Shown here piece by piece: positions 6,125-63,196 of a stretch of DNA of 64,000 bases. Made by a program: the position numbers and the translations under genes. Every line of letters begins with the position of its first letter. The stretch's first letter is position 1. The stretch comes from Actinomycetales bacterium (GTDB taxonomy: Bacteria > Actinomycetota > Actinomycetes > S36-B12 > UBA5976), in the NCBI GenBank assembly GCA_018969715.1, contig JAGWXT010000004.1, forward strand, positions 1 to 64,000, in the 5' to 3' direction. Under the pieces are notes generated by a model, which had not been told where the DNA came from, ran no database searches, and saw only the letters and a program-made list of their open reading frames with translations.

Positions 6125-6768
6125 CGACGGAGGAGGGCCACGCCAGCAGGGCCGGATTTCTCCGGATGGAACTGAGTGCCGGCAAGGGGACCGGATTCGA
6201 TGGCGGCGATGAAACGACCCCCGTAATCAGCGGTGGTCACCCGCAGGTGTGCGTCGGCGACCGGGGGGTCGGCAGCCGCAGGCGGCGGCCACGGCACGGC
6301 ATAGGAATGGACGAAGTAGTACCGCTGACCCGGCTCATCAGTGAACAGCGCACTGCCGGGAGCGGGATCGATGAGGTTCCAGCCCATGTGCGGAACGATC
6401 GGCGCCGTGAGCCGCACGAGGTGACCCGGCAGCAGTCCCAGGCCCGTGACATCCGCCGAGTCGCGCTGATCGGCGTGCTCTGCACTGCCCTCGCACATCA
6501 CCTGCATTCCCACGCAGATCCCCAGCACGGCGGCCCCGCGGGCGTACCGCTCACGGATCAGGTCATCGCCCCCCGCCTCCCGCAACGCCGCCCGGCAGGC
6601 CGCGAATGCCCCGACACCGGGCACAACCAGACCGGCCGCCGACCGTGCCGTCGGCAGGTCATCGCTTACGGTCACAGCACACCCCGCCGCCGTCAGGGCG
6701 CGCGCAACGGAGCGGATGTTCCCCGACCCGTAGTCGAACACGACCACCGGTGGCCCGGCAGCGATCAC
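6106..6768 (-). CDS. hisH: Imidazole glycerol phosphate synthase, glutaminase subunit
   Basis: Class I glutamine amidotransferase that hydrolyses glutamine to supply ammonia to HisF. The GTG at 6768, overlapping the hisB stop as GTGA, is chosen because [13 protein letters not shown] follows within a few residues; longer readings only add hisB shadow sequence. This gives 220 residues. The nucleophile cysteine lies in GICVGMQ (near residue 90) and the His-Glu pair in FHPEKSG near the C-terminus, so the catalytic triad is complete. Confidence 0.95.
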
Positions 6769-8509: not shown

Positions 8510-9801
8510 GACCGAGACAGCCGCTGGTCGACAGCGTGGGCATGGGCCGGCAGGTCCTCGGCATATGCCAGTACCCGCAGGTGACCGGCACTGGCGTGCA
8601 GGGCCGTCGCGTCGTAGTGCACCAGCGTCCGGTGCCGCAGGAAGGTCATGACACTCAGCCCGGATGCATAGCGCGCGGTCCCGGCCGTGGGCAGGACGTG
8701 GTTGGAACCGGCAACGTAGTCACCCAGTGGCACCGGTGAGTGATCGCCGATGAAGATGCAGCCCGCAGCGGAGATCTGCTCGGCCACCACCTGCGGCTCG
8801 CGGGTGAGGATCTGCAGGTGCTCGGCCGCGTAGGCGTTGGCCACGGCCACCGCATCGGCGAGTTCGGCCACGATGACCACGGCACTCTGGTCGCCGCTGA
8901 GCGCGGCGGTCACCACTGACCGGTGGGGCGTGGCCGGCACCTGTTCGGCCAGAGCAGTCTGGACGGCCTCGGCGAGCTCGGCGCTGGTGGTGATCAGCAG
9001 GCAGGCGGCCAGCGGATCGTGCTCGGCCTGTCCAATGAGGTCGGCAGCAACCCAGGCTGCGGATGCGGTCTCATCGGCGATGATGGCGATCTCGGTGGGT
9101 CCTGCCTCCGCATCGATACCGACGTGGCCGTGGACACAGCGCTTGGCCGCGGCGACATAGGCATTGCCCGGGCCGGTGATGACATCCACTGGCGGGCAGC
9201 TGCCGGTGCCGTGGGCGAGCATTGCGATCGCCTGTGCCCCACCGGCGGCATAGACCTCGTCGATGCCAAGGATCGCGCAGGCAGCGAGGATGGTCGGATT
9301 GGGCCAGCCGTCCGGACGCTGCGGTGGGCTGGCAACGGCGATCGAGGGGACCCCCGCAACCTGCGCGGGAACGACGTTCATCACGACACTGCTGGGGTAC
9401 ACCGCCCGGCCACCGGGAACGTAGACGCCGGCCCGCGCAACGGCCTGCCATCGCCCGCTGACCCAGCCCCCGGGGACCACCTCGACATCCGTCGGCGTCA
9501 GCGCCGCCCGCTGCACCTCATGCACTCGACGCAGCCTCGTGATCGACAGGGCCAGGGCCTCGCGAACCTGCGGGTCGCAGTCAGTGTGTGCCTCAGCGAG
9601 GATGCGTGCGGGCACCCGGAGGGCGGGCGGGCGAACCCCGTCGAAGCGTTCACCCGCGGCAAGCACCGCCTCATCCCCGGTCTGGGCCACCGCCTCGACG
9701 ATCGCGGCGACGGTGGGCCCCGCAACGACAGTGGAACGTGGTCGCAGCGATGGCCACGGACGGGACGGGTCGTGGCCGCGGAGGTCCACGCACCGCATCA
9801 C
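8506..9801 (-). CDS. hisD: Histidinol dehydrogenase
   Basis: Zinc enzyme performing the last two NAD-dependent oxidations to histidine. The 431-residue protein shows the family hallmarks VYVPGGRAVYPSSVVMNVVPA, GAQAIAMLAHGTG, GPGNAYVAAAKR and IGDHSPVPLGDY, and GSNHVLPT near the C-terminus. It is the first gene of the minus-strand his operon, so the promoter should lie in 9802-9937, which it shares divergently with the LON-domain gene. The first two codons are both methionine, so the start could be one codon later. Confidence 0.95.
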   Translation of the reverse strand: MMRCVDLRGHDPSRPWPSLRPRSTVVAGPTVAAIVEAVAQTGDEAVLAAGERFDGVRPPALRVPARILAEAHTDCDPQVREALALSITRLRRVHEVQRAALTPTDVEVVPGGWVSGRWQAVARAGVYVPGGRAVYPSSVVMNVVPAQVAGVPSIAVASPPQRPDGWPNPTILAACAILGIDEVYAAGGAQAIAMLAHGTGSCPPVDVITGPGNAYVAAAKRCVHGHVGIDAEAGPTEIAIIADETASAAWVAADLIGQAEHDPLAACLLITTSAELAEAVQTALAEQVPATPHRSVVTAALSGDQSAVVIVAELADAVAVANAYAAEHLQILTREPQVVAEQISAAGCIFIGDHSPVPLGDYVAGSNHVLPTAGTARYASGLSVMTFLRHRTLVHYDATALHASAGHLRVLAYAEDLPAHAHAVDQRLSRS

Positions 9802-10679: not shown

Positions 10680-13600
10680 CCGAGCACTCCCGGTCCCAGC
10701 AGCGCCTTCAGGTCGGCATGGAGGGCGGCGCTGGGTCGCACCCGCAACGGGTCGGCCAGACGCAGGACGGTCGTCCGCGAGCCGTCGAGCAGGTGGACGT
10801 GCACCTCCGTGGCACCTGGATGGTCGGCGAGCACCGATCGCAGGCGCTCGACCACCGGCGGCACGCAGCGGGCCGCCGCAATCCGCAGAACCACCGGACC
10901 CGCGGGCTCAGCGTCGATATCGACGGTCGACACCGACAGCGCCACCACCCGCGGGGTGTCCTCCTCGCGCGCCTCGACCCGCACGCGGAGGGCGAGGACG
11001 GCATCCTCGGTGAGCAGCGTCCCCGCACTCGCGTACACCTGCGGGAACACCATCACCTCGACGCTGCCCTCGAGATCGGCCAGGGTGACGATCGCCCAGG
11101 CGCCCCCTTGGCGGGTGACTCGACGCTGCACGCCCGTGACGAGGCCTGCCACTGTGACGACCTCGGCCTCGCCATGGTCGCCGGCGTGCACGGCGGCGAT
11201 TGAGCAGTCCGCACTCGCGGCGAGCACCCGCTCGAGCCCGGCGAGGGGGTGATCGGTGACGTAGAGACCGAGCATCTCCCGCTCATGGGCCAGCAGCACC
11301 GGCTTATCCCATTCGACAATGGGGATTCGTGCGGGCAGGCCGGGCGCATCGGTCACCGGCGCGGCGGGCGATGACACGGTGGAGAACAGGTCGAACTGGC
11401 CCACCGCCTCGGCCCGCTTGACGTCCACGATCAGGTCGACTGCCTCACCGCAGATGGTGATCAGGCCCTTGCGGGTGTGGCCAAGGGAGTCGAAGGCGCC
11501 CGCCTTGATCAAGGACTCGATCACCCGCTTATTGCAGACCGATGCGTCAACCTTGGCGAGGAAGTCCGAGAAGTCCCCGAATCGACCCGCACTGGTGCGT
11601 GCCCGCGCGATGGACTCCACGACCCCGGCGCCGACATTGCGCACGGCACCGAGCCCGAACCGGATGTCGCTGCCGACCGGCGTGAAGTCGGCCTGGGACT
11701 CGTTGACATCCGGGGCGAGGACCTTGATCCCCATCCGACGGCACTCATTGAGGTACCCGGCCAGCCGATCCTTGTCGTCCTGGACGCTGGTGAGCAGTGC
11801 CGCCATGTACTCGGTCGGGTAGTTCGCCTTCAGATGCGCCGTCCAGTAGGACAGCAGCGCATAGCCCGCAGAGTGGGCCTTGTTGAAGGCGTAGTCCGAG
11901 AAGGGCACGAGGATCTCCCACAGCACGCCACTGGCCTGCGGGGAGTACCCATTCGCGGCCATGCCGGCCTGGAAGGGCCCGAACTCGCGCTCGAGGATCT
12001 CCTTCTTCTTCTTGCCCATGGCTCGCCGCAGCAGGTCCGCCTGCCCGAGGCTGTAGCCGGCGAGGCGCTGTGCAATCGCCATCACCTGCTCCTGGTAGAC
12101 GATCAGGCCGTAGGTCTCCGCAAGGATCTCCGACAGCGGCTCGGCCAGTTCCGGATGGATGGGATGGACGGGACTGCGGCCGTTCTTGCGGTCGGCGTAG
12201 TCATTGTGGGCATTGGCGCCCATGGGGCCCGGCCGATACAGGGCGAGCACCGCGCAGATGTCATCGAAGCAGTCCGGGCGCAGGGAACGCAGCAGGGAGC
12301 GCATCGGACCGCCATCGAGCTGGAAGACCCCCAGGGTGTCCCCACGGGAGAGCAGCCCGTAGGTGGTCGGATCGTCCAGTGGCAGCGATGCGAGGTCCAG
12401 CCGGTGCCCGCGGTTGGTCAGCACGTGGCCGCAGCAGTCATCGAGGATGGTGAGGTTGCGCAGGCCAAGGAAGTCCATCTTCAGCAGGCCGAGGGCCTCA
12501 CAGGCGGCCATGTCGAACTGGGTGATGATCGCCCCGTCCTGCTCCCGCCGCCACACCGGGATGACGTCGGCCAGCGGCTCCCGGCACAGGATCACGCCGG
12601 CAGCGTGGACGCCGGGCTGACGCTTGAGTCCCTCCAGGCCGCGCGCGGTCCGCACCACCTCGGCGACCGCCTCATCCTGGGCGATCATCTCGCGCAGCTG
12701 CGCGGCCTCGCCATAGCGTTCATGTGTCGGGTCCAGCACCCCCGACAGGGTGATGTCCCGACCCATGATCGAAGGCGGCATCGCCTTCGTGATGCGGTCA
12801 CTCAGGGCATAGGGATGGCCGAGGACGCGCGCTGCGTCCTTGATCGCCGCCTTCGCCTTGATGGTGGAGTACGTGACGATCTGTGCTACGTGATCACTGC
12901 CGTAGGTCTGGGTTGCGTAGCGGATCACATCGGCGCGACGACGCTCATCGAAGTCGATGTCGATATCGGGCATGGAGACCCGGTCCGGGTTGAGGAAGCG
13001 CTCGAAGAACAGCCCATGGGCGAGCGGATCGAGGTCGGTGATCCCCAGCGCATAGGCGACAACCGAGCCGGCGGCCGAGCCACGACCGGGGCCGACCCGG
13101 ATGCCGTTGTCCTTTGCATGGCGCACGAGGTCCGCGACCACCAGGAAGTAGCCGGGAAAGCCCATCCGGCAGATGACCGCCACCTCGTACTCGGCCTGCG
13201 CACGGTGGGCCTCCGGCACGGAGCCGGCGAAACGCCGCAGCAGACCGGCCGCCACCTCGCGCACCAGCCAGGAGTGCTCGGACTCCCCGTCCGGGACGGG
13301 AAACCTCGGCAGCAGGTCGGCACCCTCGGTGAACTCCACTCGGCATCGCTCCGCGATTGCCAGTGTGGCATCGCATGCCTCCGGCAGCTCCCGCCACAGA
13401 TGCCGCATCTGTGCCGGGGACTTCAGATAGAACTCCTGCGCGTCGAACCGAAAGCGCTTGGGATCGGCCATCGTGGTGCGCGTGCCCACGCACAGCAGCA
13501 CCTCATGCGCCTCGGCGTCGGCGGCGTGCGTGTAATGGGTGTCATTTGTCGCGACCAGGGGCAGCCCCAGGGAACGGGCAAGCCGCAGCAGGTCCTCGCG

Positions 13601-14218
13601 ATGCCGTCGCTCGATGGGCAGCCCATGATCCATGAGCTCGCAGAAGTAGTTGTCCGGACCGAGGATGTCGCGCAGGTCCGCCGCGACCTCGCGGGCCCGG
13701 TCGTAGCGTCCCGCCTGCAGCCAGCGATTCACCTCGCCGGAGGGGCAGCCGGTGGTCGCGATGATCCCGCTGCCGTACTGCTCAAGCAGTTCCCGGTCCA
13801 GCCGCGGCTTGTGGTAGTAGCCCTCGAGGCTGGCCAGGCTGGCGATCCGGAACAGGTTGTGCATCCCCACGGTGGTCTCGGCTAGCAGGGTGATGTGGGT
13901 ATAGGCCGCTCGGCCGCGGCCACCAGCCTCCCCGTCGCCGGCCGCGTCAGCACTGCCGAACTCCATCGGTGCGCGACCCCGCCTGCCCCCGGGGGCGTAG
14001 TACCCCTCAAGCCCGATGATCGGGTTCACACCGTGACGGTTCCCCGCCCGCCAGAACTCGTGGGCGCCGAAGAGGTACCCATGGTCGGTCATCGCCAGGG
14101 CGGGCATGCCGAGTCGGGCTGCCTCAGCGAACAGGTCGTCAATGCGCGCAGCCCCGTCGAGCATGGAGTACTCGGTATGGACGTGCAGGTGGACGAAGGA
14201 GTCCGGACCGGCTGCCAT
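10676..14218 (-). CDS. dnaE1: DNA polymerase III alpha subunit (replicative)
   Basis: Main chromosomal replicase, 1180 residues. The PHP domain opens with FVHLHVHTEYSMLDGAARI, and the palm carries RVGPGRGSAAGSVVAYALG and the catalytic aspartate motif MPDIDIDFDERRRAD near residue 415. These are followed by a tandem HhH region and a C-terminal OB-fold (VTVAGLVTGVQRRV). The ATG at 14218 is preferred over an upstream one because the PHP domain begins at once. The gene follows rluD by eight bases, as in other actinobacteria. It is distinct from the second alpha subunit, dnaE2, at 49.9-53.3 kb. Confidence 0.97.
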   Translation of the reverse strand: MAAGPDSFVHLHVHTEYSMLDGAARIDDLFAEAARLGMPALAMTDHGYLFGAHEFWRAGNRHGVNPIIGLEGYYAPGGRRGRAPMEFGSADAAGDGEAGGRGRAAYTHITLLAETTVGMHNLFRIASLASLEGYYHKPRLDRELLEQYGSGIIATTGCPSGEVNRWLQAGRYDRAREVAADLRDILGPDNYFCELMDHGLPIERRHREDLLRLARSLGLPLVATNDTHYTHAADAEAHEVLLCVGTRTTMADPKRFRFDAQEFYLKSPAQMRHLWRELPEACDATLAIAERCRVEFTEGADLLPRFPVPDGESEHSWLVREVAAGLLRRFAGSVPEAHRAQAEYEVAVICRMGFPGYFLVVADLVRHAKDNGIRVGPGRGSAAGSVVAYALGITDLDPLAHGLFFERFLNPDRVSMPDIDIDFDERRRADVIRYATQTYGSDHVAQIVTYSTIKAKAAIKDAARVLGHPYALSDRITKAMPPSIMGRDITLSGVLDPTHERYGEAAQLREMIAQDEAVAEVVRTARGLEGLKRQPGVHAAGVILCREPLADVIPVWRREQDGAIITQFDMAACEALGLLKMDFLGLRNLTILDDCCGHVLTNRGHRLDLASLPLDDPTTYGLLSRGDTLGVFQLDGGPMRSLLRSLRPDCFDDICAVLALYRPGPMGANAHNDYADRKNGRSPVHPIHPELAEPLSEILAETYGLIVYQEQVMAIAQRLAGYSLGQADLLRRAMGKKKKEILEREFGPFQAGMAANGYSPQASGVLWEILVPFSDYAFNKAHSAGYALLSYWTAHLKANYPTEYMAALLTSVQDDKDRLAGYLNECRRMGIKVLAPDVNESQADFTPVGSDIRFGLGAVRNVGAGVVESIARARTSAGRFGDFSDFLAKVDASVCNKRVIESLIKAGAFDSLGHTRKGLITICGEAVDLIVDVKRAEAVGQFDLFSTVSSPAAPVTDAPGLPARIPIVEWDKPVLLAHEREMLGLYVTDHPLAGLERVLAASADCSIAAVHAGDHGEAEVVTVAGLVTGVQRRVTRQGGAWAIVTLADLEGSVEVMVFPQVYASAGTLLTEDAVLALRVRVEAREEDTPRVVALSVSTVDIDAEPAGPVVLRIAAARCVPPVVERLRSVLADHPGATEVHVHLLDGSRTTVLRLADPLRVRPSAALHADLKALLGPGVLG

Positions 14219-38190: not shown

Positions 38191-39830
38191 TGGCGATGCT
38201 CCCGCCTGATCCGAGCGCGGACGGCGGCGGTGAACAGCTCGCCACGTTCACCGTAGTCAGCGAACATGTCCCACGATGCACAGGCGGGTGCGAGCAGCAC
38301 CGTGTCCCCGGGCTGTGCGAGGTCGGCGGCCGCGGCGACCACTCGTTCCATGATCGACGCCGCATCGGGCCGGCCGGATGGCAGGGTGGGCCCGGTCACC
38401 TCGACCACCGGCAGCTCCGGCGCCCAGCGGGTGAGGGCCGCAGCCAGCAGTGCCCGGTCCGCGCCGAGCAGGACCACCGCCCGCAGCCGTGACCTCACTG
38501 CCGGGATGAGCCCGTCGAAGTGCTGGCCCTTCGCATCACCGCCGGCGATCCACACCACTCGGTCCCAGCCGGCAATCGATGCACGGGCGGCGTGGGCATT
38601 CGTGGCCTTGCTGTCATCCACCCAGGCGACCCCGGCCGCGTTCGCAATGAGGGCACTGCGGTGCGGGGCCGGGCGAACTGCACCGAGTCCGCCGGCGATC
38701 GCATGGGCAGCAACCCCCACGGTGCGGGCCAGTGCCGCTGCGGCCAGGGCGTTGGCGAGGTTGGGCCCGGCCAGTGCCGCCTGCCCGGCGACGGGGGTGA
38801 GCGGCTCGGCGTCGGCGAACGCCCGGTCGATCAGCCAGCCGTCCGAGACCCCCAGCTGGCCGTGTGCCGGCTCGGCCTGGGTCACGCCGATGATCGGGCA
38901 GTCCGCAGGACAGCCGCCGAGTCGGGGCAGGTCGATGGTGGCCGGATCGTCGACGTTGACCACCGCGTGCCTGGCCCCCCGGAAGACCCGAGCCTTGGCG
39001 AGCCGGTAGGCCAGCGCCGGGCCCCCGGCCGGCAGGTCCGCAACGGTGAATTCGGCCGGCAGGTCCGCACCGGTGAATTCGGCCGGCAGGTCCGCACCGG
39101 TGAATTCGGCCGGCAGGTCCGCACCGGTGAAGTAGTCGAAGTGATCGTCGGCGATATTCGTCACCGCCGCGGCATCTCCGCGCAGGTCACCGGCGCGCGA
39201 TAGCTGCTGTGCACTCACCTCCAGCGCCAGTGCGTCGAGGGGATCGTCGAACATGACAGCCGCGACAACGCTGGTACCGATATTGCCCAGTGCCGGCGCC
39301 CGCATGCCGGCGGCGGTGAGCATGGCACTGAGCATGAGCGTGGTCGTCGTCTTGCCGTTCGTGCCGGTGATGAGCAGCCACGGCCCATCGCCGGGGCGGC
39401 GCAGCTGCCAGGCCAGTGCCAGTTCCCCCCAGATCGGCACGCCCATCACCTGCGCCCGTTGCAGGATCGGGGTGCGCGCCGGCAGGCCGGGGGAGGCGAT
39501 CAGCAGTGCGCACGACCCATCGAGGTCGGCCCATGCGTCGGTGGGCCCGGATCCTCCCGCACGGGTGGACGAGGTTGGGTCGCCCACGATCACCCGTGCA
39601 CCCAGGTGTTCGGCCACTGCCGCGTTATCCCCCACCTGGCGGCCGACGCCGGAGTCCCGGACGGTGACCGCCGCCCCGAGGGCGCACAGGGCGCGAACGG
39701 CGCCGATCCCCGCCACTCCCAGCCCGACGACGGTCACCGGCAGCCCCGTCCAGTCGCTGTCCCGCGTCAGGTCGGCAACCGGGCTGCGGCCGACCCGCCG
39801 GGGCGTCGGCGCGGTCAGGTGCGAATCCAT
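38187..39830 (-). CDS. murD: UDP-N-acetylmuramoyl-L-alanine-D-glutamate ligase
   Basis: Adds D-glutamate to UDP-MurNAc-Ala. At 547 residues it is longer than the usual 450-490. The ATP loop is ITGTNGKTTTTLML, and the ligase motifs include NIADDHFDYF and VDDSKATNAHAA. The excess comes mainly from a 27-bp tandem repeat that inserts copies of FTGADLPAE directly after DDHFDYF and before YRLAKARVF, where the family normally has a short loop. A hydrophilic N-terminal extension also contributes. It overlaps mraY by 16 bases. Confidence 0.95.
   Translation of the reverse strand: MDSHLTAPTPRRVGRSPVADLTRDSDWTGLPVTVVGLGVAGIGAVRALCALGAAVTVRDSGVGRQVGDNAAVAEHLGARVIVGDPTSSTRAGGSGPTDAWADLDGSCALLIASPGLPARTPILQRAQVMGVPIWGELALAWQLRRPGDGPWLLITGTNGKTTTTLMLSAMLTAAGMRAPALGNIGTSVVAAVMFDDPLDALALEVSAQQLSRAGDLRGDAAAVTNIADDHFDYFTGADLPAEFTGADLPAEFTGADLPAEFTVADLPAGGPALAYRLAKARVFRGARHAVVNVDDPATIDLPRLGGCPADCPIIGVTQAEPAHGQLGVSDGWLIDRAFADAEPLTPVAGQAALAGPNLANALAAAALARTVGVAAHAIAGGLGAVRPAPHRSALIANAAGVAWVDDSKATNAHAARASIAGWDRVVWIAGGDAKGQHFDGLIPAVRSRLRAVVLLGADRALLAAALTRWAPELPVVEVTGPTLPSGRPDAASIMERVVAAAADLAQPGDTVLLAPACASWDMFADYGERGELFTAAVRARIRREHRQ
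39027..39131 (-). repeat. 27-bp tandem repeat inside murD
   Basis: Nearly four copies of a 27-base unit (39027-39053, 39054-39080, 39081-39107 and a partial fourth to 39131), almost identical in sequence. Each encodes nine residues (EFTGADLPA in rotation). The high identity between copies indicates recent expansion within an essential gene. Confidence 0.95.
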
Positions 39831-47760: not shown

Positions 47761-47811
47761 TCCACCACGCCCGCCCGAAGGATGGACCGGGGGGCTGGTT
47801 GAAGGGGGACC

Positions 47812-47907
47812 GGGACTACAGGTGCGCCGAACGGCGCACGAACCCCCGGGACTACAGGTGCGCCGAACGGCGCACGAACCCCCGGGACTACAGGTGCGCC
47901 GAAGTGC
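47812..47907. repeat. 36-bp tandem repeat with an internal perfect hairpin
   Basis: Two identical 36-base units (47812-47847, 47848-47883) and a shortened third (from 47884). Each full unit contains GTGCGCCG-AA-CGGCGCAC, a perfect 8-bp palindromic stem. It lies about 140 bases upstream of mraZ and 40 bases after the DUF3040 gene. Open frames through it exist in several phases, but they only reflect the repeat. Confidence 0.9.
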
Positions 47908-48532: not shown

Positions 48533-49870
48533 CTAGCCCGGGGCCCCCGGAGGCGGGCCTGCCCCATGCGGGGTCGGATGCTGCGGCGGCTTTACAGGCA
48601 TGCCCCCCGCGTGCGGACCGGACCGTGCGGAATGAGTGCCGCCGAGCAGTCTGGCTGGGGTGACGGCGTCCTCCCCGAACCTTGCCACCGCGCGATCCCG
48701 TGCGACATCCACCTCCCGCCACCCTCGATCGGCCTGCCCGAGGGTCAATTGCTCGGTTGCCTCTGCCGACGACACCAGACCGGACACGCGCAGGCCGATC
48801 AGGCGGATGCGTGCACGCTCCCAGCGCAGGCCGGCGTATAGGCCACGAGCCGCCGCATAGAGTTCCTGACCCCGATCAGTGGGATGGTCGAGGGTGCGGG
48901 AGCGGGTGAGAGTCACCAGGTCAGCGCGTCGCACCTTCACCACCACCGTCCGACCCCGCACCGCTGCCCGGCGGAGACGCGCAGCGGTGCGCTCACATAG
49001 GGCGAGCAGCATCGCCGTGAGTCGCTCCGAGTCCAACACGTCCTCATCGAAGGTGTGCTCGGCGCCGAAACTTCGGTCCGGGACGTCGGAGACAACGGGA
49101 CGAGGGTCCTCTCCCCGGGCAAGTGCAGCCAGCCGGTGCGCCTGATTCGCCCCGAATGCGCGCTCCAGTGTGGTCAGCGGCACCTCGATGAGATCGGCAA
49201 CCGTCCGCACCCCCAGCTCGCCCAGCCGGTGCGCGGTCCGGGCGCCGATCCCCCACAGTGCGGTCACGTCGAGGGGGTGAAGGAACTGCGCCACATCAGC
49301 CGGCGGGATGACGGTGAGCCCATCCGGCTTGCCGGCGTTGGTCGCGAGCTTGGCCAGCAGTTTCGATCCAGCCACCCCAACCGAGCAGGTGAGGCCGGTC
49401 TGCTCACGGACGGCGGCACGGATCTGCTCGCCGATGAACCGTGGACTGCCAAGTAGGCGGCGGGCACCGGCCACATCGAGGAATGCCTCGTCCAGGGAGA
49501 GCGGCTCCACCAGGGGGGTGAACGATCGGAGGATGTCCATGACCTGCCCGGAGGCCTGCGCATAGGCGGCATGGGCGGGTGGCACGATCACCGCGGACGG
49601 GCACAGCCGGTGCGCCTGGGCGATCGGCATCGCCGATCTGACGCCGTATGCGCGCGCCTCATAGGTGGCCGAGAGAACAACCCCCCGATGACCAGCCGCA
49701 GCGACGATCACGGGCCTGCCACGGAGCTGGGGGTGATCACGTACTGCCACCGAGGCATAGAAGGCATCCATGTCGACGTGGAGGATGGTGCAGCCGACAT
49801 CACCCACCCGATGACTGACAGTGTCGGCATCATGGCCAGACGGTTCGTCGGCTCCGGGGTCATCGATCAT
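48533..49870 (-). CDS. dinB: Y-family DNA polymerase IV (DinB)
   Basis: Translesion polymerase of 445 residues. The catalytic carboxylates are present in LHVDMDAFYASV (33-35) and LSLDEAFLDV (near 130), so unlike ImuB-type partners of DnaE2 it should be active. SVGVAGSKLLAKLATNAGKPDG and GIGARTAHRLGELGV (HhH) follow, then the little-finger domain. The ATG at 49870 overlaps the dnaE2 stop as ATGA. I see no clear C-terminal beta-clamp motif by eye, apart from EQLTLG near residue 385, which could serve. Confidence 0.94.
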   Translation of the reverse strand: MIDDPGADEPSGHDADTVSHRVGDVGCTILHVDMDAFYASVAVRDHPQLRGRPVIVAAAGHRGVVLSATYEARAYGVRSAMPIAQAHRLCPSAVIVPPAHAAYAQASGQVMDILRSFTPLVEPLSLDEAFLDVAGARRLLGSPRFIGEQIRAAVREQTGLTCSVGVAGSKLLAKLATNAGKPDGLTVIPPADVAQFLHPLDVTALWGIGARTAHRLGELGVRTVADLIEVPLTTLERAFGANQAHRLAALARGEDPRPVVSDVPDRSFGAEHTFDEDVLDSERLTAMLLALCERTAARLRRAAVRGRTVVVKVRRADLVTLTRSRTLDHPTDRGQELYAAARGLYAGLRWERARIRLIGLRVSGLVSSAEATEQLTLGQADRGWREVDVARDRAVARFGEDAVTPARLLGGTHSARSGPHAGGMPVKPPQHPTPHGAGPPPGAPG

Positions 49871-52800
49871 CGACCGGATCCACTCGCTCCCCTGGCGCCG
49901 TGCCACAGCCGCGATGCAGGCGTCGGTGGGCTCCCATGGCGGCCGGATACCCCAGTCGCGCGCAGCGCCTGCCAGACGGCATCACGGCCATGCCGTCGCC
50001 AGATGCCGTGCAGCGCTGACAGCGACCAGCAGCCGGTCGCTCGCAGGGAGACTCCGCTCCCCCCGCTGCGGCGCACAACACCCCGGGCAAGCAGGAGCCA
50101 CTCCCCGAACAGGACCGTCGCACAGTGCTGCTGGACATCGTCGAAGAAGGCAAGGTCGACGGGACCGGTGGCGTCATCGAGGGTGAGGAACACCACGCGC
50201 TGACCGGATCGCACCGGTGGCGCCTGAATGGCGACCTTCACCCCTCCGACGAGGATCTCCGTCCGGGTGCGGCAGGTGAGGAGGTCGCGGGAGCGGGTGG
50301 CACGGATGTCGAGGAGCATCCCGGAATAGAAGTCGACAAGGTGGCGGCTCACGTCCAGGCCGAGGACTTCGATCTCGGCGCGCACCCGGTCGGCGTCGGT
50401 GAGCAGGGGAAGCCCAGCCCGTGATCGGCGGCGGGCCTCGGACGGCGACTCGGTCGAGGTGCCACCCGGATCGGCCGGTGGCGGATGCGATGCCGGCAGG
50501 GTGAGAGCGAGCTGTCCGGCCAGTGGCCGAGCACGCCGGCTACTGGCCACGCCAGCAAGGTCGGCCAAGTCCAGCAGCAGGTCGCGATGATCGCTGCCGG
50601 GACACGCGGAATCGAGGCCGCCGACGCGGATCAGCCGCTCGGCGGTGGCCCGACTGACATGGGTTCGCGACCAGAAGTCCGCCAGCCCCCGATACGGGTC
50701 CTCCGCGCGGGCGGTGACGATGCGCCCCACCTCCACCGCACTGATCCCCTTCACCTCCGACAGTGCCAGCCGGATCCCGGGCCGGCCATCAGCGGTGGGC
50801 TCGACGATGTAGTCCGCAACCGATCGGTTGACGTCAAGGCCGAGCACAGCCACCCCCTGTTGACGGGCATCATCAAGGATGAGTCGCTTGGGGTACATGC
50901 CCGGATCATGGGTGAGGACACCGGCATAGAACGCCGCCGGATGGTGCGTCTTGAGCCATGCCGACTGGTAGGTGGGCAGCGCGAATGCCGCGGCATGCGC
51001 CTTGCAGAAGCCGAAGGAGGCGAATGCATCGAGCACTCGCCACACCCGCTCGATGACATCGTCGGGATAACCGCGCTCACGGGCGCGCTCCCGGAACCAC
51101 TCGGCGACCACCGCCCGTCCCACCGGCGGCCCCAGTGCCCGGCGCTGCTCATCGGCATGCGCCAGGGAGCAGCCGGTCATCCGAGCGATGAGGGCGATGA
51201 CCTGCTCATGGAAGACGACCACCCCCTCGGTCTGGCACAGGATGTCGTGGAGGTCCGGATGGATCAGATCGGCGACCTGCCAGCCATGCCGGGAGGCGAG
51301 GAAGGGGGTGATCATGTCGGAGGTGACCGGACCGGGTCGGAACAGTGAGATGTCGATGATGAGATCGTGGAAGATGCGAGGGGCAAGCCGACCAACGAGT
51401 TCCCGCTGCCCCGGTGACTCGATCTGGAAACAGCCTAGGGTGCGGCTGGAGCGGATGAGGGCGTAGGTGGCGGGATCGTCGAGTGGCAGCGCATCGATGT
51501 CCACCGCATCATCGGCGATCTGGCTGATGGCATGTGCCATCGCCGACTGCATGCGCACTCCGAGCACATCGAGCTTCAGCAGGCCGAGTGCCTCGACATC
51601 GTCCTTGTCGAACTGCGCCATCGGATAGCCCGCGGCACTGGGCTGCACCGGCACCCGGTCGCGCAGACCCGCATCGCTGATGATCACCCCGCATGGGTGC
51701 ATGGCTAGGTGGCGAGGCAGCCCATCGAGTGCCTCCACCAGTTGGAGTACCCCGGTCAGACGTCCAGCCGCGAAGAGGCGTCCCCAGGTGGAGTCGCGCA
51801 ACTCCGGCAGGGCGGCCAGTGCGGCACGCGCATCCCGGGCGCGAATATGCGGGAATGCCTTGGCCAGGGCGTCGATCTCCCCAGCGGGGAGCCCCAGGGC
51901 CGCCCCGACATCGCGGATGGCATGACGAACCCGGTAGGTGTCTCGCATCATCACCGTGCACACTCGGTGCCGGCCGAAGCGTTCGACGATGGCGTCGTAG
52001 ACCTCCAGTCGGCGAGCAGACTCCACGTCGATGTCGATATCGGGCAGCCCGGTGCGCAGTGGGGAGAGGAACCGTTCCATGAGCAGGCCATGGGCCACCG
52101 GATCCACCCCGCTGATGCCGAGGACATGGTTGACCAGGCACCCGGCACCCGATCCACGGGCGGCAACTCGAATCCCGCGCGCTCGTACCAGATCGCACAC
52201 CTGGGCAACGGTGAGGAAGTAGGTTGCCAGGCCCAGTCGACTGATGACCGACAGTTCATCGTGGAGTCGGCTGCGATATTGCTCCCGATGGGCGTGGCCG
52301 CGGTGCGCCAGCCCACTCTCGGCCCGCCGCCGCAGCACATCATCGGCATGCAATGGGCCACTGCCGCAGACGACCTCGCTCTCCGGCACGTAGACCCGCC
52401 CCATCCCCACCGCCGCTGCAGTGAGGTGGTGGGCGCTCGCCACCTCCTGGGTCCACCCCCACATGTGGCTGGCATATCGCGACAGCCCGGCCGCCTCGGC
52501 GACCTCCACGCACACCCTGCGCATCTGCGCAGTGCCAGCCAGGTGCCCCTGGGCATTCGGGCGATCGACATGGCCTGCATCGAGTGGGATGAGCCTGCGC
52601 ACCGCATCGAGGACATCGACGATCGGCGCCTCCGCGACGGTGGCGAAGCGCACCGCATTGGTCAGCACCGCTCGGCAGCGGAGTCGTTGGGCGAGGGTGA
52701 GCAGGTGGGCCGCGGTGGCGGTGGCAACCGGTGAGCCGGTGGGCGCCCGGTGGCTGACGATCTCGAGGTGGACGTGATCGGGACCGAGCGCCGCCACCCA

Positions 52801-53337
52801 GGATCGGGCGCGCATGAGAGCACCCTCGTAGTCGCGTGCACACAGCGCTCGACCGACCGGGGACCATGGGCCGAGCAGGACGGTGAGTGTGGAATCGACG
52901 GCGTACTCAAGGATGCTGCTCTCCGGCAGGGCAACATCATCGGGTCCCGTTGCCGGACCACCGGCGTGGGCCGATCCGGCGTGAGCGGCACTGATGAGCC
53001 GGCACAGCCCGGACCAACTTCTCGCATCGTGGGCGAGAACCAGCACCCATGGGTGGCGTGGATCGCGAGCACGCGCAGCCGGCGGGTCCCCGGGAGCAGC
53101 GCGCACCGGGATGATCGCCCCGATGATGGACGCAAGGCCCGCGGCCTGGCAGGCATGGAGGAACTGGACGGCACCGGACACCGAGACCCGATCGGTCAGC
53201 GCCAGAGCGGTCTGACCATGCGCCTGGGCTCGTGCCACGAGCGCCTGCGGGGTGCTCGCCCCGTAGCGCAGGGAGTGACACGAGGCGACATGCAGGTGGG
53301 TGAACCCGGCCGCGTCGGCATCGTCAGCCCCGCACAC
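49867..53337 (-). CDS. dnaE2: Error-prone DNA polymerase III alpha subunit DnaE2
   Basis: Damage-inducible C-family polymerase, 1156 residues. The PHP domain starts FTHLHVASCHSLRYG; the palm has RVAARGSGAGCLVNHVLG and the catalytic LPDIDIDVES near residue 430. FGFCKAHAAAFA and an OB-fold (AIQAPPVRSGQRVVFLTLDD region) complete the family order. The start is a GTG lying inside the last unit of a 16-bp repeat. It sits between the DUF6504 gene and dinB, behind an SOS box, so it should be LexA-controlled. Confidence 0.94.
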   Translation of the reverse strand: MCGADDADAAGFTHLHVASCHSLRYGASTPQALVARAQAHGQTALALTDRVSVSGAVQFLHACQAAGLASIIGAIIPVRAAPGDPPAARARDPRHPWVLVLAHDARSWSGLCRLISAAHAGSAHAGGPATGPDDVALPESSILEYAVDSTLTVLLGPWSPVGRALCARDYEGALMRARSWVAALGPDHVHLEIVSHRAPTGSPVATATAAHLLTLAQRLRCRAVLTNAVRFATVAEAPIVDVLDAVRRLIPLDAGHVDRPNAQGHLAGTAQMRRVCVEVAEAAGLSRYASHMWGWTQEVASAHHLTAAAVGMGRVYVPESEVVCGSGPLHADDVLRRRAESGLAHRGHAHREQYRSRLHDELSVISRLGLATYFLTVAQVCDLVRARGIRVAARGSGAGCLVNHVLGISGVDPVAHGLLMERFLSPLRTGLPDIDIDVESARRLEVYDAIVERFGRHRVCTVMMRDTYRVRHAIRDVGAALGLPAGEIDALAKAFPHIRARDARAALAALPELRDSTWGRLFAAGRLTGVLQLVEALDGLPRHLAMHPCGVIISDAGLRDRVPVQPSAAGYPMAQFDKDDVEALGLLKLDVLGVRMQSAMAHAISQIADDAVDIDALPLDDPATYALIRSSRTLGCFQIESPGQRELVGRLAPRIFHDLIIDISLFRPGPVTSDMITPFLASRHGWQVADLIHPDLHDILCQTEGVVVFHEQVIALIARMTGCSLAHADEQRRALGPPVGRAVVAEWFRERARERGYPDDVIERVWRVLDAFASFGFCKAHAAAFALPTYQSAWLKTHHPAAFYAGVLTHDPGMYPKRLILDDARQQGVAVLGLDVNRSVADYIVEPTADGRPGIRLALSEVKGISAVEVGRIVTARAEDPYRGLADFWSRTHVSRATAERLIRVGGLDSACPGSDHRDLLLDLADLAGVASSRRARPLAGQLALTLPASHPPPADPGGTSTESPSEARRRSRAGLPLLTDADRVRAEIEVLGLDVSRHLVDFYSGMLLDIRATRSRDLLTCRTRTEILVGGVKVAIQAPPVRSGQRVVFLTLDDATGPVDLAFFDDVQQHCATVLFGEWLLLARGVVRRSGGSGVSLRATGCWSLSALHGIWRRHGRDAVWQALRATGVSGRHGSPPTPASRLWHGARGASGSGR

Positions 53338-53401
53338 CGTCAGCCCCGCACACCGTCAGCCCCGCACACCGTCAGCCCCGCACATCGTCAGCCCCGCACA
53401 T
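53323..53401 (-). repeat. 16-bp tandem repeat covering the dnaE2 start codon
   Basis: Five consecutive copies (starting at 53323, 53339, 53355, 53371 and 53387), nearly identical. Read in the dnaE2 direction each unit begins ATG or GTG followed by TGCGGGGCTGAC. Because 16 is not a multiple of three, each upstream start opens a ten-codon frame ending at the TGA of the next unit; only the last start reads into dnaE2. Confidence 0.9.
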
Positions 53402-53431
53402 ATGAATATGAGGCCTGCTCACGTCCATCCC

Positions 53432-53770
53432 TCAGTCCCATAGCCGGGACAGCCACCAGCACCGCTGCATCTCGACCAGGTCGTAGACCCCGGCAGGTGT
53501 GGTCGACCGTTGCTGCAGCCGCGCCACCACTCGCCAGAATCGATGGTCAGCACCGCTCACCATGTCGGCAGCACCCAGATCCGCCCCGAATGGGCCAACT
53601 CCCGACCACCCCGCCCCGGCATCGCACTCCCGCCACCAGATCGGGCCCTCCTGCCAGGAGGTGAGGATCTCCCGGATGAGGTAGCCCCGACCGCGCCAGC
53701 GGAAGCCACAGGGCCGGTCGTGCGCGTCCACCCACACCGTGACCGGCTCATGGGTGAGGCGTTTGACCAC
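53432..53770 (-). CDS. DUF6504-family protein of the dnaE2-dinB operon
   Basis: A 112-residue beta-rich protein starting at GTG 53770. EPVTVWVDAHDRPCGFRWRGR, cut as RPCGFRWRGRGYLIR, then HRFWRVVA, VYDLVEMQRCWWLSRLWD near the end match the small proteins encoded beside dinB and dnaE2 in many actinobacteria. Function is unknown; co-regulation with the polymerases suggests an accessory role in mutagenic repair. It is the first gene after the SOS box, with only 12 bases between box and start codon. Confidence 0.8.
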   Translation of the reverse strand: MVKRLTHEPVTVWVDAHDRPCGFRWRGRGYLIREILTSWQEGPIWWRECDAGAGWSGVGPFGADLGAADMVSGADHRFWRVVARLQQRSTTPAGVYDLVEMQRCWWLSRLWD

Positions 53771-53782
53771 CCAGCCATGCTA

Positions 53783-53798
53783 TCGAACATATGTTCGA
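53783..53798. promoter_or_regulatory. SOS (LexA) box
   Basis: TCGAACATATGTTCGA is a perfect 16-base palindrome matching the actinobacterial LexA consensus TCGAAC-N4-GTTCGA. It lies 12 bases before the DUF6504 gene (minus) and 47 bases before the glycosyltransferase-like gene (plus), so it may control both directions. Confidence 0.88.
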
Positions 53799-53845
53799 AT
53801 TCGTACCGGGGGTCCCGTTCAGGCCCGAGAAGTACGCTTCCCGGC

Positions 53846-54733
53846 GTGTCCGGCGATCTGCCTGTGCTTGTCGTGACGACCACTGCCGCATGGCCGGACG
53901 CCCTTGCCGCTCAGCGACGACTGCTCAACCGGCATCTCCGCGACGCCTACCGCTTCCTCGTCGTGGTCAACACCCCGGTTGAACCGTCCCAGTCAAACCT
54001 CTGGGATCGGACGATGCGCGACCGCACCATCGCGATGGCCCACGAGACTGCCGACGAGGTCATCGTCGTCCCACCAGAGGTCCATCAGGACCGGCGCACC
54101 CTCTTCCCGCGCACCATCGCTCGCCGCGCCGCCGACACCAATGCCACCCTGATGCACGCCGATGCACTGCAGTACACATGGAACACCCGCCTGCGAGGGT
54201 GCGGAACGGCCGCCATGATCCTGGACTCCGACATGTTCCCGATTCGCGACTTCAGCATCCGCGAACAGCTCGGCGCGAACATCCTGATCGGACTGCCCCA
54301 GCATCGCCGCCGGCGCTTCCCGCCACGGGAGGTGACCTACCTGTGGAGTGGATTGGCGCTGTTCGACTTCGCCCGCATGCCCCATCAGGACCACTGGTCC
54401 TACGACGTGGGGTTCGTCGCCGGCATCCGGCTTGACGGAGGTGGGCAGACTGCACGCTGGCTGGACCGCCTCACGCCGCCCGAGCGTGCCCAGGTGGGCA
54501 CGATGCGCTCATTCCACAGCGGCGCATGGACGGCCCAGGATCTGCCGGCCGACCTGCCCGAGCCGGTGCGCGACTTCATCCTCACCGATGACCGGAACCG
54601 GGCGGGAACCCTCTACTGCGAATATTTCCTCGACTGCCTGCTGCACTACCGCGGTGGGGGCTCCAACTGGCAGAACGAGGAGGCCGCGATCGTCACCGCG
54701 CGCCAGCAGCGGCTGCTTGCGGCCCTGCAGTGA
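53846..54733 (+). CDS. Glycosyltransferase-like protein of unknown specificity
   Basis: A 295-residue soluble protein starting at GTG 53846. LVVVTTTAAWPDALAAQ and YRFLVVVNTPVEPSQSN form an N-terminal alpha/beta core, and AAMILDSDMFPIRDFSI contains a DxD-like DSDMF typical of metal-dependent GT-A enzymes. WSGLALFDFARMP resembles the acceptor region of such folds. No specific family is recognised. It overlaps the following membrane-protein gene by GTGA, so the two probably act together. Confidence 0.6.
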   Translation: MSGDLPVLVVTTTAAWPDALAAQRRLLNRHLRDAYRFLVVVNTPVEPSQSNLWDRTMRDRTIAMAHETADEVIVVPPEVHQDRRTLFPRTIARRAADTNATLMHADALQYTWNTRLRGCGTAAMILDSDMFPIRDFSIREQLGANILIGLPQHRRRRFPPREVTYLWSGLALFDFARMPHQDHWSYDVGFVAGIRLDGGGQTARWLDRLTPPERAQVGTMRSFHSGAWTAQDLPADLPEPVRDFILTDDRNRAGTLYCEYFLDCLLHYRGGGSNWQNEEAAIVTARQQRLLAALQ

Positions 54734-62587: not shown

Positions 62588-63196
62588 CTAGACCGTGTTC
62601 TTCGCAATCTGATCGACCGTGACACTGCCCGCCCACTTGGCAAGCTCGGTGCCGTCAGCATCGACCTGCACGAAGGTGTGCTGGACTGTCACCCCGTACG
62701 TGCGCCGCAGGTCATTGGCCGTGTCGAAGTCGACGACGACGATGGTCAGGTCAGGCGGAATGCTCGCAAGGTCGGCCTGGATGTTGTCTCGAGCCACCTT
62801 GCAGGTCGAGCACCACCTCGCGTTGAAGAACAGCACGACATCAGTCCCCGCATAGCTTGCCGGATCCGCCTCGTACTCAGCCAGCGTGATGTAGGAACCG
62901 GCCCCTGGCGCTGTGGCATCGCTGGTCGATTCCTCCGGCTCCCCCGGCTCCCCCGGCTCCCCCGGCTCCCCCGGCTCCCCCGGCTCCCCCGGCTCCCCCG
63001 GCTCCCCCGGCTCCCCCGGCTCCCCCGGCTCTGCCGGAGGTACCGGGGTGGCTGAGGTCGCTGCTTGCTCGGAGGCCGTCGCGGTCGGAGAAGGCATCGG
63101 TGAATCGGACGCTGGTGACGAACAGCCTGTCACCGCGAGAGCGAGCACAGTTACCAGGAGTGGACCGACCCTGCGATCGCCGTCTCTCGTGCACAT
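62588..63196 (-). CDS. Thioredoxin-like lipoprotein with a Gly-Glu-Pro repeat linker
   Basis: A 202-residue exported protein. The lipobox VTGC (Cys 25) follows a hydrophobic signal segment, so it should be lipid-anchored. A linker of ten GEP repeats lies between the anchor and a thioredoxin-like domain, which has FFNARWCSTCKVARDN (CxxC) and VTVQHTFVQVDADG. Probably the redox partner of the adjacent CcdA protein. The repeat would hold the domain away from the membrane. Confidence 0.88.
   Translation of the reverse strand: MCTRDGDRRVGPLLVTVLALAVTGCSSPASDSPMPSPTATASEQAATSATPVPPAEPGEPGEPGEPGEPGEPGEPGEPGEPGEPGEPEESTSDATAPGAGSYITLAEYEADPASYAGTDVVLFFNARWCSTCKVARDNIQADLASIPPDLTIVVVDFDTANDLRRTYGVTVQHTFVQVDADGTELAKWAGSVTVDQIAKNTV
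62937..63026 (-). repeat. 9-bp tandem repeat coding (Gly-Glu-Pro)10
   Basis: Ten identical 9-base units in frame within the lipoprotein linker. Perfect identity makes the array prone to slippage, which would change linker length in steps of three residues without a frameshift. Confidence 0.95.

Follow-up and report, generated by a model that had tools for sequence, protein, structure and literature searches.

How is a mutagenic DNA polymerase translated when its start codon is written five times over at the head of the gene? In the operon of an uncultured actinobacterium, a tandem array spans the start of dnaE2, and the original prediction, made from a 64,000-nt stretch of DNA (all of it analyzed here, and called the window), described five 16-bp units of which only the last opens dnaE2. 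Both points hold. The five-unit repeat at the dnaE2 start was confirmed by sequence and by Tandem Repeats Finder, and the frame of unit 5 runs on for 1156 codons as dnaE2, while units 1-4 terminate.

The dnaE2 operon and its repeated start

The operon consists of an exact LexA box, DUF6504, the array, dnaE2 and dinB, in that order:

53783-53798: LexA (SOS) box TCGAACATATGTTCGA, palindromic, an exact match to TCGAACNNNNGTTCGA
53777-53782, minus strand: candidate -10 element TAGCAT, 6 nt before the DUF6504 GTG (TANNNT scan, a consensus match only)
53432-53770, minus strand: DUF6504 gene, which opens the operon and encodes 112 aa, with its TGA stop at 53434-53432 (Pfam PF20114, 38.3 bits against a cut-off of 24.2)
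53372-53428, minus strand: leader mini-ORF MDVSRPHIHMCGADDVRG-stop, 18 codons, 3 nt past the DUF6504 stop
53322-53401, minus strand: tandem array of 5 x 16 bp, RTGTGCGGGGCTGACG (sequence and Tandem Repeats Finder)
49867-53337, minus strand: dnaE2-type C-family DNA polymerase of 1156 aa (assigned by NCBIfam, Pfam and alignment with relatives)
48533-49870, minus strand: dinB, DNA polymerase IV (NCBIfam PRK03858, 397.5 bits against a cut-off of 367)

An exact LexA site occurs just twice in the 2.15-Mb genome, in this box and as the LexA-type palindrome at G000:C11:33279-33294 (L121). The DUF6504 start is predicted to be leaderless, and no mention of DUF6504 was found in the literature searched. 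At the other end of the operon the dinB start overlaps the dnaE2 stop on ATGA, by which this downstream junction is presumably coupled as well. dinB, with its motifs VDMDAF and SLDEAF intact, is the sole Y-family gene (PF00817) found in the 94.8%-complete genome, where the same search found no ImuB. A DnaE2 would be expected in a LexA-regulated cassette with imuA/imuB; the locus has the exact LexA box, but its Y-family gene is dinB. In the loci of most relatives, too, dnaE2 is followed downstream by a Y-family gene.

The polymerase shares 46-68% identity with DnaE2-type relatives from actinobacteria. Its best NCBIfam match is the PRK05672 error-prone polymerase with 624 bits, under the curated cut-off of 939; of two actinobacterial relatives that score about 609 with this model, L004 gets a slightly better score with DnaE1. 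As the polymerase and these relatives fall below the error-prone cut-off, the name DnaE2 rests on kinship and context. A separate, clear DnaE1 is encoded in the window at 10985-14206 (1435 bits, cut-off 1002). In DnaE2 proteins the OB fold is not followed by a C-terminal domain (PMC3919608), and here it occupies residues 1035-1102 of 1156 with no domain beyond it.

Tandem Repeats Finder calls the array at 53322-53400 (period 16, 4.9 copies, 98% match, score 151), and its exact limits are 53322-53401, that is 80 bp in five head-to-tail units read on the minus strand from 53401 to 53322. Reading-frame analysis gave the following features, all on the minus strand:

53386-53401: unit 1 (ATG), in frame with the leader ORF
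53370-53385: unit 2 (ATG), whose 9-codon frame (53385-53356) stops in unit 3
53354-53369: unit 3 (GTG), 2 nt past the leader ORF stop
53340-53369: relay mini-ORF VCGADGVRG-stop from unit 3, with its TGA 2 nt before the dnaE2 GTG
53338-53353: unit 4 (GTG), whose 9-codon frame (53353-53324) stops in unit 5
53322-53337: unit 5 (GTG 53337), the sole usable canonical dnaE2 start
53196-53321: decoy frame of 41 codons from an out-of-frame ATG that follows the array immediately, 16 nt past the dnaE2 start

In array order the units start with ATG, ATG, GTG, GTG and GTG, each followed by TGCGGGGCTGACG, and they differ solely at this first base (A or G). The prediction that the copy nearest the leader keeps ATG was right about that copy, although two units (53401 and 53385) carry ATG and not one. 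Likewise, the upstream starts do stop in the next unit as proposed, at a TGA, but the stated length of ten codons is corrected to nine sense codons plus the stop in each of units 1-4. Three features had been overlooked. Upstream of the array there are in-frame starts at ATG 53428 and GTG 53422, which make the first frame an 18-codon leader ORF that passes through unit 1 and ends in unit 2; the alternative start GTG 53422 is accompanied by an SD-like GAGGG. Further, every unit has a nested GTG at +2 that opens the frame VRG-stop, and the array is followed by the out-of-frame ATG 53321.

Since the period of 16 is a multiple of three plus one and the TGA lies at unit offset 11-13, each reading frame is closed every 48 nt in the array. 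With two or more units the leader frame always ends at the TGA in unit 2 and therefore never continues into dnaE2, which leaves the last unit as the sole canonical start of the gene. No ATG, GTG or TTG other than GTG 53337 stands in the dnaE2 frame from the preceding stop codon (53358-53356) to the first conserved residue. The DnaE2 protein is unaltered by expansion of the array at any copy number of at least two, a protein-silent expansion that was absent from the original prediction. Frame-based phase variation, with n = 1, 4 or 7 restoring the leader frame, was rejected, as the TGA of unit 2 halts the leader at every n of at least two.

The array belongs to this locus. The 16-mer has no further occurrence in the window with fewer than two mismatches, and its 14-bp core GTGCGGGGCTGACG has no second exact copy in the 2.15-Mb genome and none in viral contigs, for which reason a dispersed repeat or mobile element was rejected. 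The genome is a draft of 36 contigs, probably metagenome-assembled (94.8% complete, 2.65% contamination), and the copy number or the array itself could in principle be an assembly error. We find this extremely improbable, because an 80-bp array with unique flanks can be spanned by a single short read of ordinary length, repeats are more often collapsed than expanded by assembly errors, and the units differ in an ordered fashion (A, A, G, G, G).

The array could also act at the level of transcription, if a promoter or leaderless start within it let transcripts begin at a unit RTG so that the decoys were bypassed. Mycobacteria commonly use leaderless RTG starts (PMC4633059), and tandem repeats exist in promoters of M. 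tuberculosis (PMC12817950). However, 53200-53900 contained nothing resembling a sigma-70 site, and none of the leader or array starts had a TANNNT in the 10 nt before it, TANNNT sites in the scan of these starts being confined to the vicinity of the LexA box (53770-53778). An internal promoter in the array was rejected on these two counts, and we regard a role in transcription as very unlikely.

A predicted relay into dnaE2

We propose, with a probability of roughly one half, that slippage produced an array that multiplied the dnaE2 start in this SOS operon, and that the array is tolerated because each unit is a self-contained module of stop, SD-like element and start, the mini-ORFs relaying translational coupling. 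Ribosomes that end DUF6504 would re-initiate 3 nt further on at the leader ATG, stop in unit 2 and re-initiate 2 nt on at unit 3; those from unit 3 would terminate in unit 4 and resume 2 nt on at unit 5, the start of dnaE2. Such a relay would carry the coupling that the 94-nt length of the array would otherwise break, and a basal level of DnaE2 may be added by direct entry of 30S at unit 5 via the weak GGGG. Coupling is most efficient at a stop-start spacing of -4 to +3 nt and in most studies falls off by 30-40 nt, and in a tested case ribosomes took the nearest start; these data are mainly from E. coli, and the spacing rules vary between species (PMC12548453). The gaps of 3, 2 and 2 nt along the predicted relay are inside the reported best range, and a direct gap of 94 nt is beyond 30-40 nt.

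That translation may depend on re-initiation had been suggested before, through a chain of overlapping short frames. The anatomy for this is present and can now be tied to the DUF6504 stop; the chain itself was inexact, since a walk under nearest-start rules uses only the leader ORF, unit 3 and unit 5, with units 2 and 4 forming a parallel track that misses dnaE2. When the walk was repeated over copy numbers, dnaE2 was reached at n = 3, 5 and 7 and missed at n = 2, 4, 6 and 8, the walk for even n ending on the out-of-frame ATG (53321 in this sequence). Each hop would be expected to cost some ribosomes, and DnaE2 output should therefore respond to copy number, most of all to whether it is odd (on) or even (low). 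The nested GTGs may shift ribosomes to the other track, and together with backward re-initiation they would soften the effect of parity. The relay, the loss per hop and the parity effect are thus predictions from the sequence.

If the parity effect operates, slippage could switch translation of the mutagenic polymerase between high and low in subpopulations, so that the array would be a contingency locus. The alternation of odd and even n in the walk fits such a switch, as do the rates at which tandem-repeat copy number varies in promoter repeats of M. tuberculosis, 10^-2 to 10^-3 per chromosome (PMC12817950), and the correlation of fpg1 mRNA with repeat length in that species (PMC2734929). 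Against this, the nested GTGs and backward re-initiation blur parity, and the copy number is that of the one genome representing the genus of the source organism. We consider a contingency locus improbable; if true, each hop would correspond to two units and mutagenesis would be controlled by counting repeats modulo two, a single-unit slip turning the SOS mutagenic polymerase up or down while its sequence never changed.

The relay geometry was compared with two kinds of randomized sequence, using a test that was chosen after inspection of the sequence. A relay with all gaps within -4 to +3 nt occurred in 0.5% of 2000 dinucleotide shuffles of the junction and in 13% of arrays built from randomly permuted units, and given the latter figure the unit may have produced the relay by accident. 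The relay is not expected of random sequence, yet this is no proof of selection on the unit.

The main rival to the relay is direct initiation: the array would be a neutral product of slippage, 30S would enter independently, by binding the SD-like GGGG that precedes the last GTG, with the decoys as bystanders that at most take some ribosomes. A GGGG is found in each unit 6 nt ahead of the next start, and it could suffice; tandem units of RBS and start 15-21 nt apart are each used in Bacillus licheniformis (PMC9723656). The junction RNA is also less structured than its shuffles (z = +2.0), so that no hairpin need be opened, and a neutral array would suit a repeat-rich genome (105 arrays in 464 kb). 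On the other hand, the SD-like match is weak, with predicted energies that are weak and alike for all starts (the anti-SD being assumed, as the 16S 3' end of this genome is unassembled), and the relay geometry is rare in the shuffled junctions. Direct initiation is possible, and we hold it to be rather unlikely. An RNA hairpin or attenuator was rejected, since the junction is less stable than all 200 shuffles and has no terminator-like site.

Should the relay function, short tandem repeats could expand within operon junctions and leave translational coupling intact, because each unit brings its own stop and start. This would explain why such arrays are tolerated and would offer a simple natural system in which to measure serial re-initiation. 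If copy number also alters output, a slippage-prone element would control a mutation-making polymerase.

Known repeats at gene junctions

Phase-variable contingency loci carry a slippage-prone repeat at a translation start, and in the classical loci slippage changes the frame of the protein. At dnaE2, by contrast, neither frame nor protein varies, and a change could affect only which track reaches the start.

The MIRU elements, for example at senX3-regX3 in M. tuberculosis, are tandem repeats at operon junctions with small ORFs joined to the downstream start, and their copy number differs among strains (PMC12548453, PMC4213456). The dnaE2 array resembles them as a set of short tandem repeats at an actinobacterial operon junction, and here too small ORFs, whose translation is predicted, link the upstream stop to the downstream start with gaps of 3, 2 and 2 nt. 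MIRU are 40-100 bp long, mobile and dispersed, and overlap the next gene by -4 nt, whereas the dnaE2 unit has 16 bp, a length not divisible by three, is unique to its locus, comes from the start of the gene itself and copies the start codon.

The rnc-fpg1 VNTR of M. tuberculosis (ETR-F/VNTR3239) has likewise grown into a short junction, 1-20 bp in most other mycobacteria, and ends at the start codon of a DNA-repair gene. It differs in its complex 55/79-bp units, which lie upstream of the start codon, and in that the effect was measured on mRNA, longer arrays going with more of it; the accessible part of the report mentions no replicated start codons such as those at dnaE2 (PMC2734929).

The engineered initiation sites of B. 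licheniformis share with the array units of SD and GTG or ATG, their spacing, and their use there by ribosomes (PMC9723656). They are synthetic, each start gives its own protein band, which implies readable N-terminal extensions, and output rises with the number of copies, while the upstream starts at dnaE2 are out of frame and terminate. The array is also akin to termination-reinitiation at operon junctions in having stop-start gaps of a few nt per step, but in place of a single junction we predict a serial relay via mini-ORFs born of the repeat. No natural equivalent of repeats multiplying a start codon was found in the literature searched. The dnaE2 array differs from these known cases in that it replicates the start codon itself, at a period not divisible by three, and leaves the protein unchanged.

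Relatives and the origin of the array

In relatives with DUF6504 directly before dnaE2, most dnaE2 genes start within about 12 nt of the DUF6504 stop and the first conserved DnaE2 residue is found 1-24 nt past it; in two of them (L075 and L062) the dnaE2 ATG is at the same +3 position as our leader ATG. In other relatives about 400-800 nt separate the two genes. Given these near-immediate starts, the leader ATG is plausibly the ancestral dnaE2 start, and the array would have displaced the start now in use to a point 94 nt beyond the DUF6504 stop. An ancestor with one unit would have the sequence ATG-TGCGGGGCTGACG-ATG, and the array could have arisen by a slip between the first of these ATGs, the original one, and the second, which lies 16 nt further on and corresponds to today's 53321. 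Every unit would then begin with a start codon because the slip ran between two ATGs, and ATG 53321 is likely the 3' microhomology of the first duplication.

One relative, the Actinomycetales MAG L061, has a degenerate 19-20 bp array through its dnaE2 start, located about 90 nt upstream of the conserved start, in which upstream copies carry ACG or AGG and only the last copy has ATG. An array was present in the dnaE2 start region of 6 of 104 relatives against 2.2% of random windows from the same loci, a weak difference with a control that mixes coding and intergenic DNA, and we do not claim the dnaE2 start as a general repeat hotspot.

Tandem repeats are frequent in the genome itself: of the arrays in the 464 kb from which the background was drawn, 28 have at least three copies and a score of at least 80. 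At a junction of two genes that we take to be cysD and cysN, from our own reading of the translations, a 21-bp x 2.9 array (L149, G000:C18:80001-100000, positions 6138-6225, minus strand) forms a 26-codon bridge ORF, MGGTPRLMGGTPRLTGGTPQRLVPGE, which runs from TGATG at the CysD stop to an overlap with the cysN GTG. Considering the repeat-rich genome, this bridge array and the array of L061, the dnaE2 array appears to be one of a kind of event that the genome tolerates.

Elsewhere, an 18-bp x 4.2 in-frame array lies just past the start of an ORF (L140, G000:C35:60001-80000, positions 9656-9730) and multiplies an ATG codon (SSMPQA repeats), so that the ORF has several starts in frame. Further strong arrays in the window are at 62931-63031 (9 bp x 11.2), 39026-39131 (27 bp x 3.9) and 47810-47903 (36 bp x 2.6).
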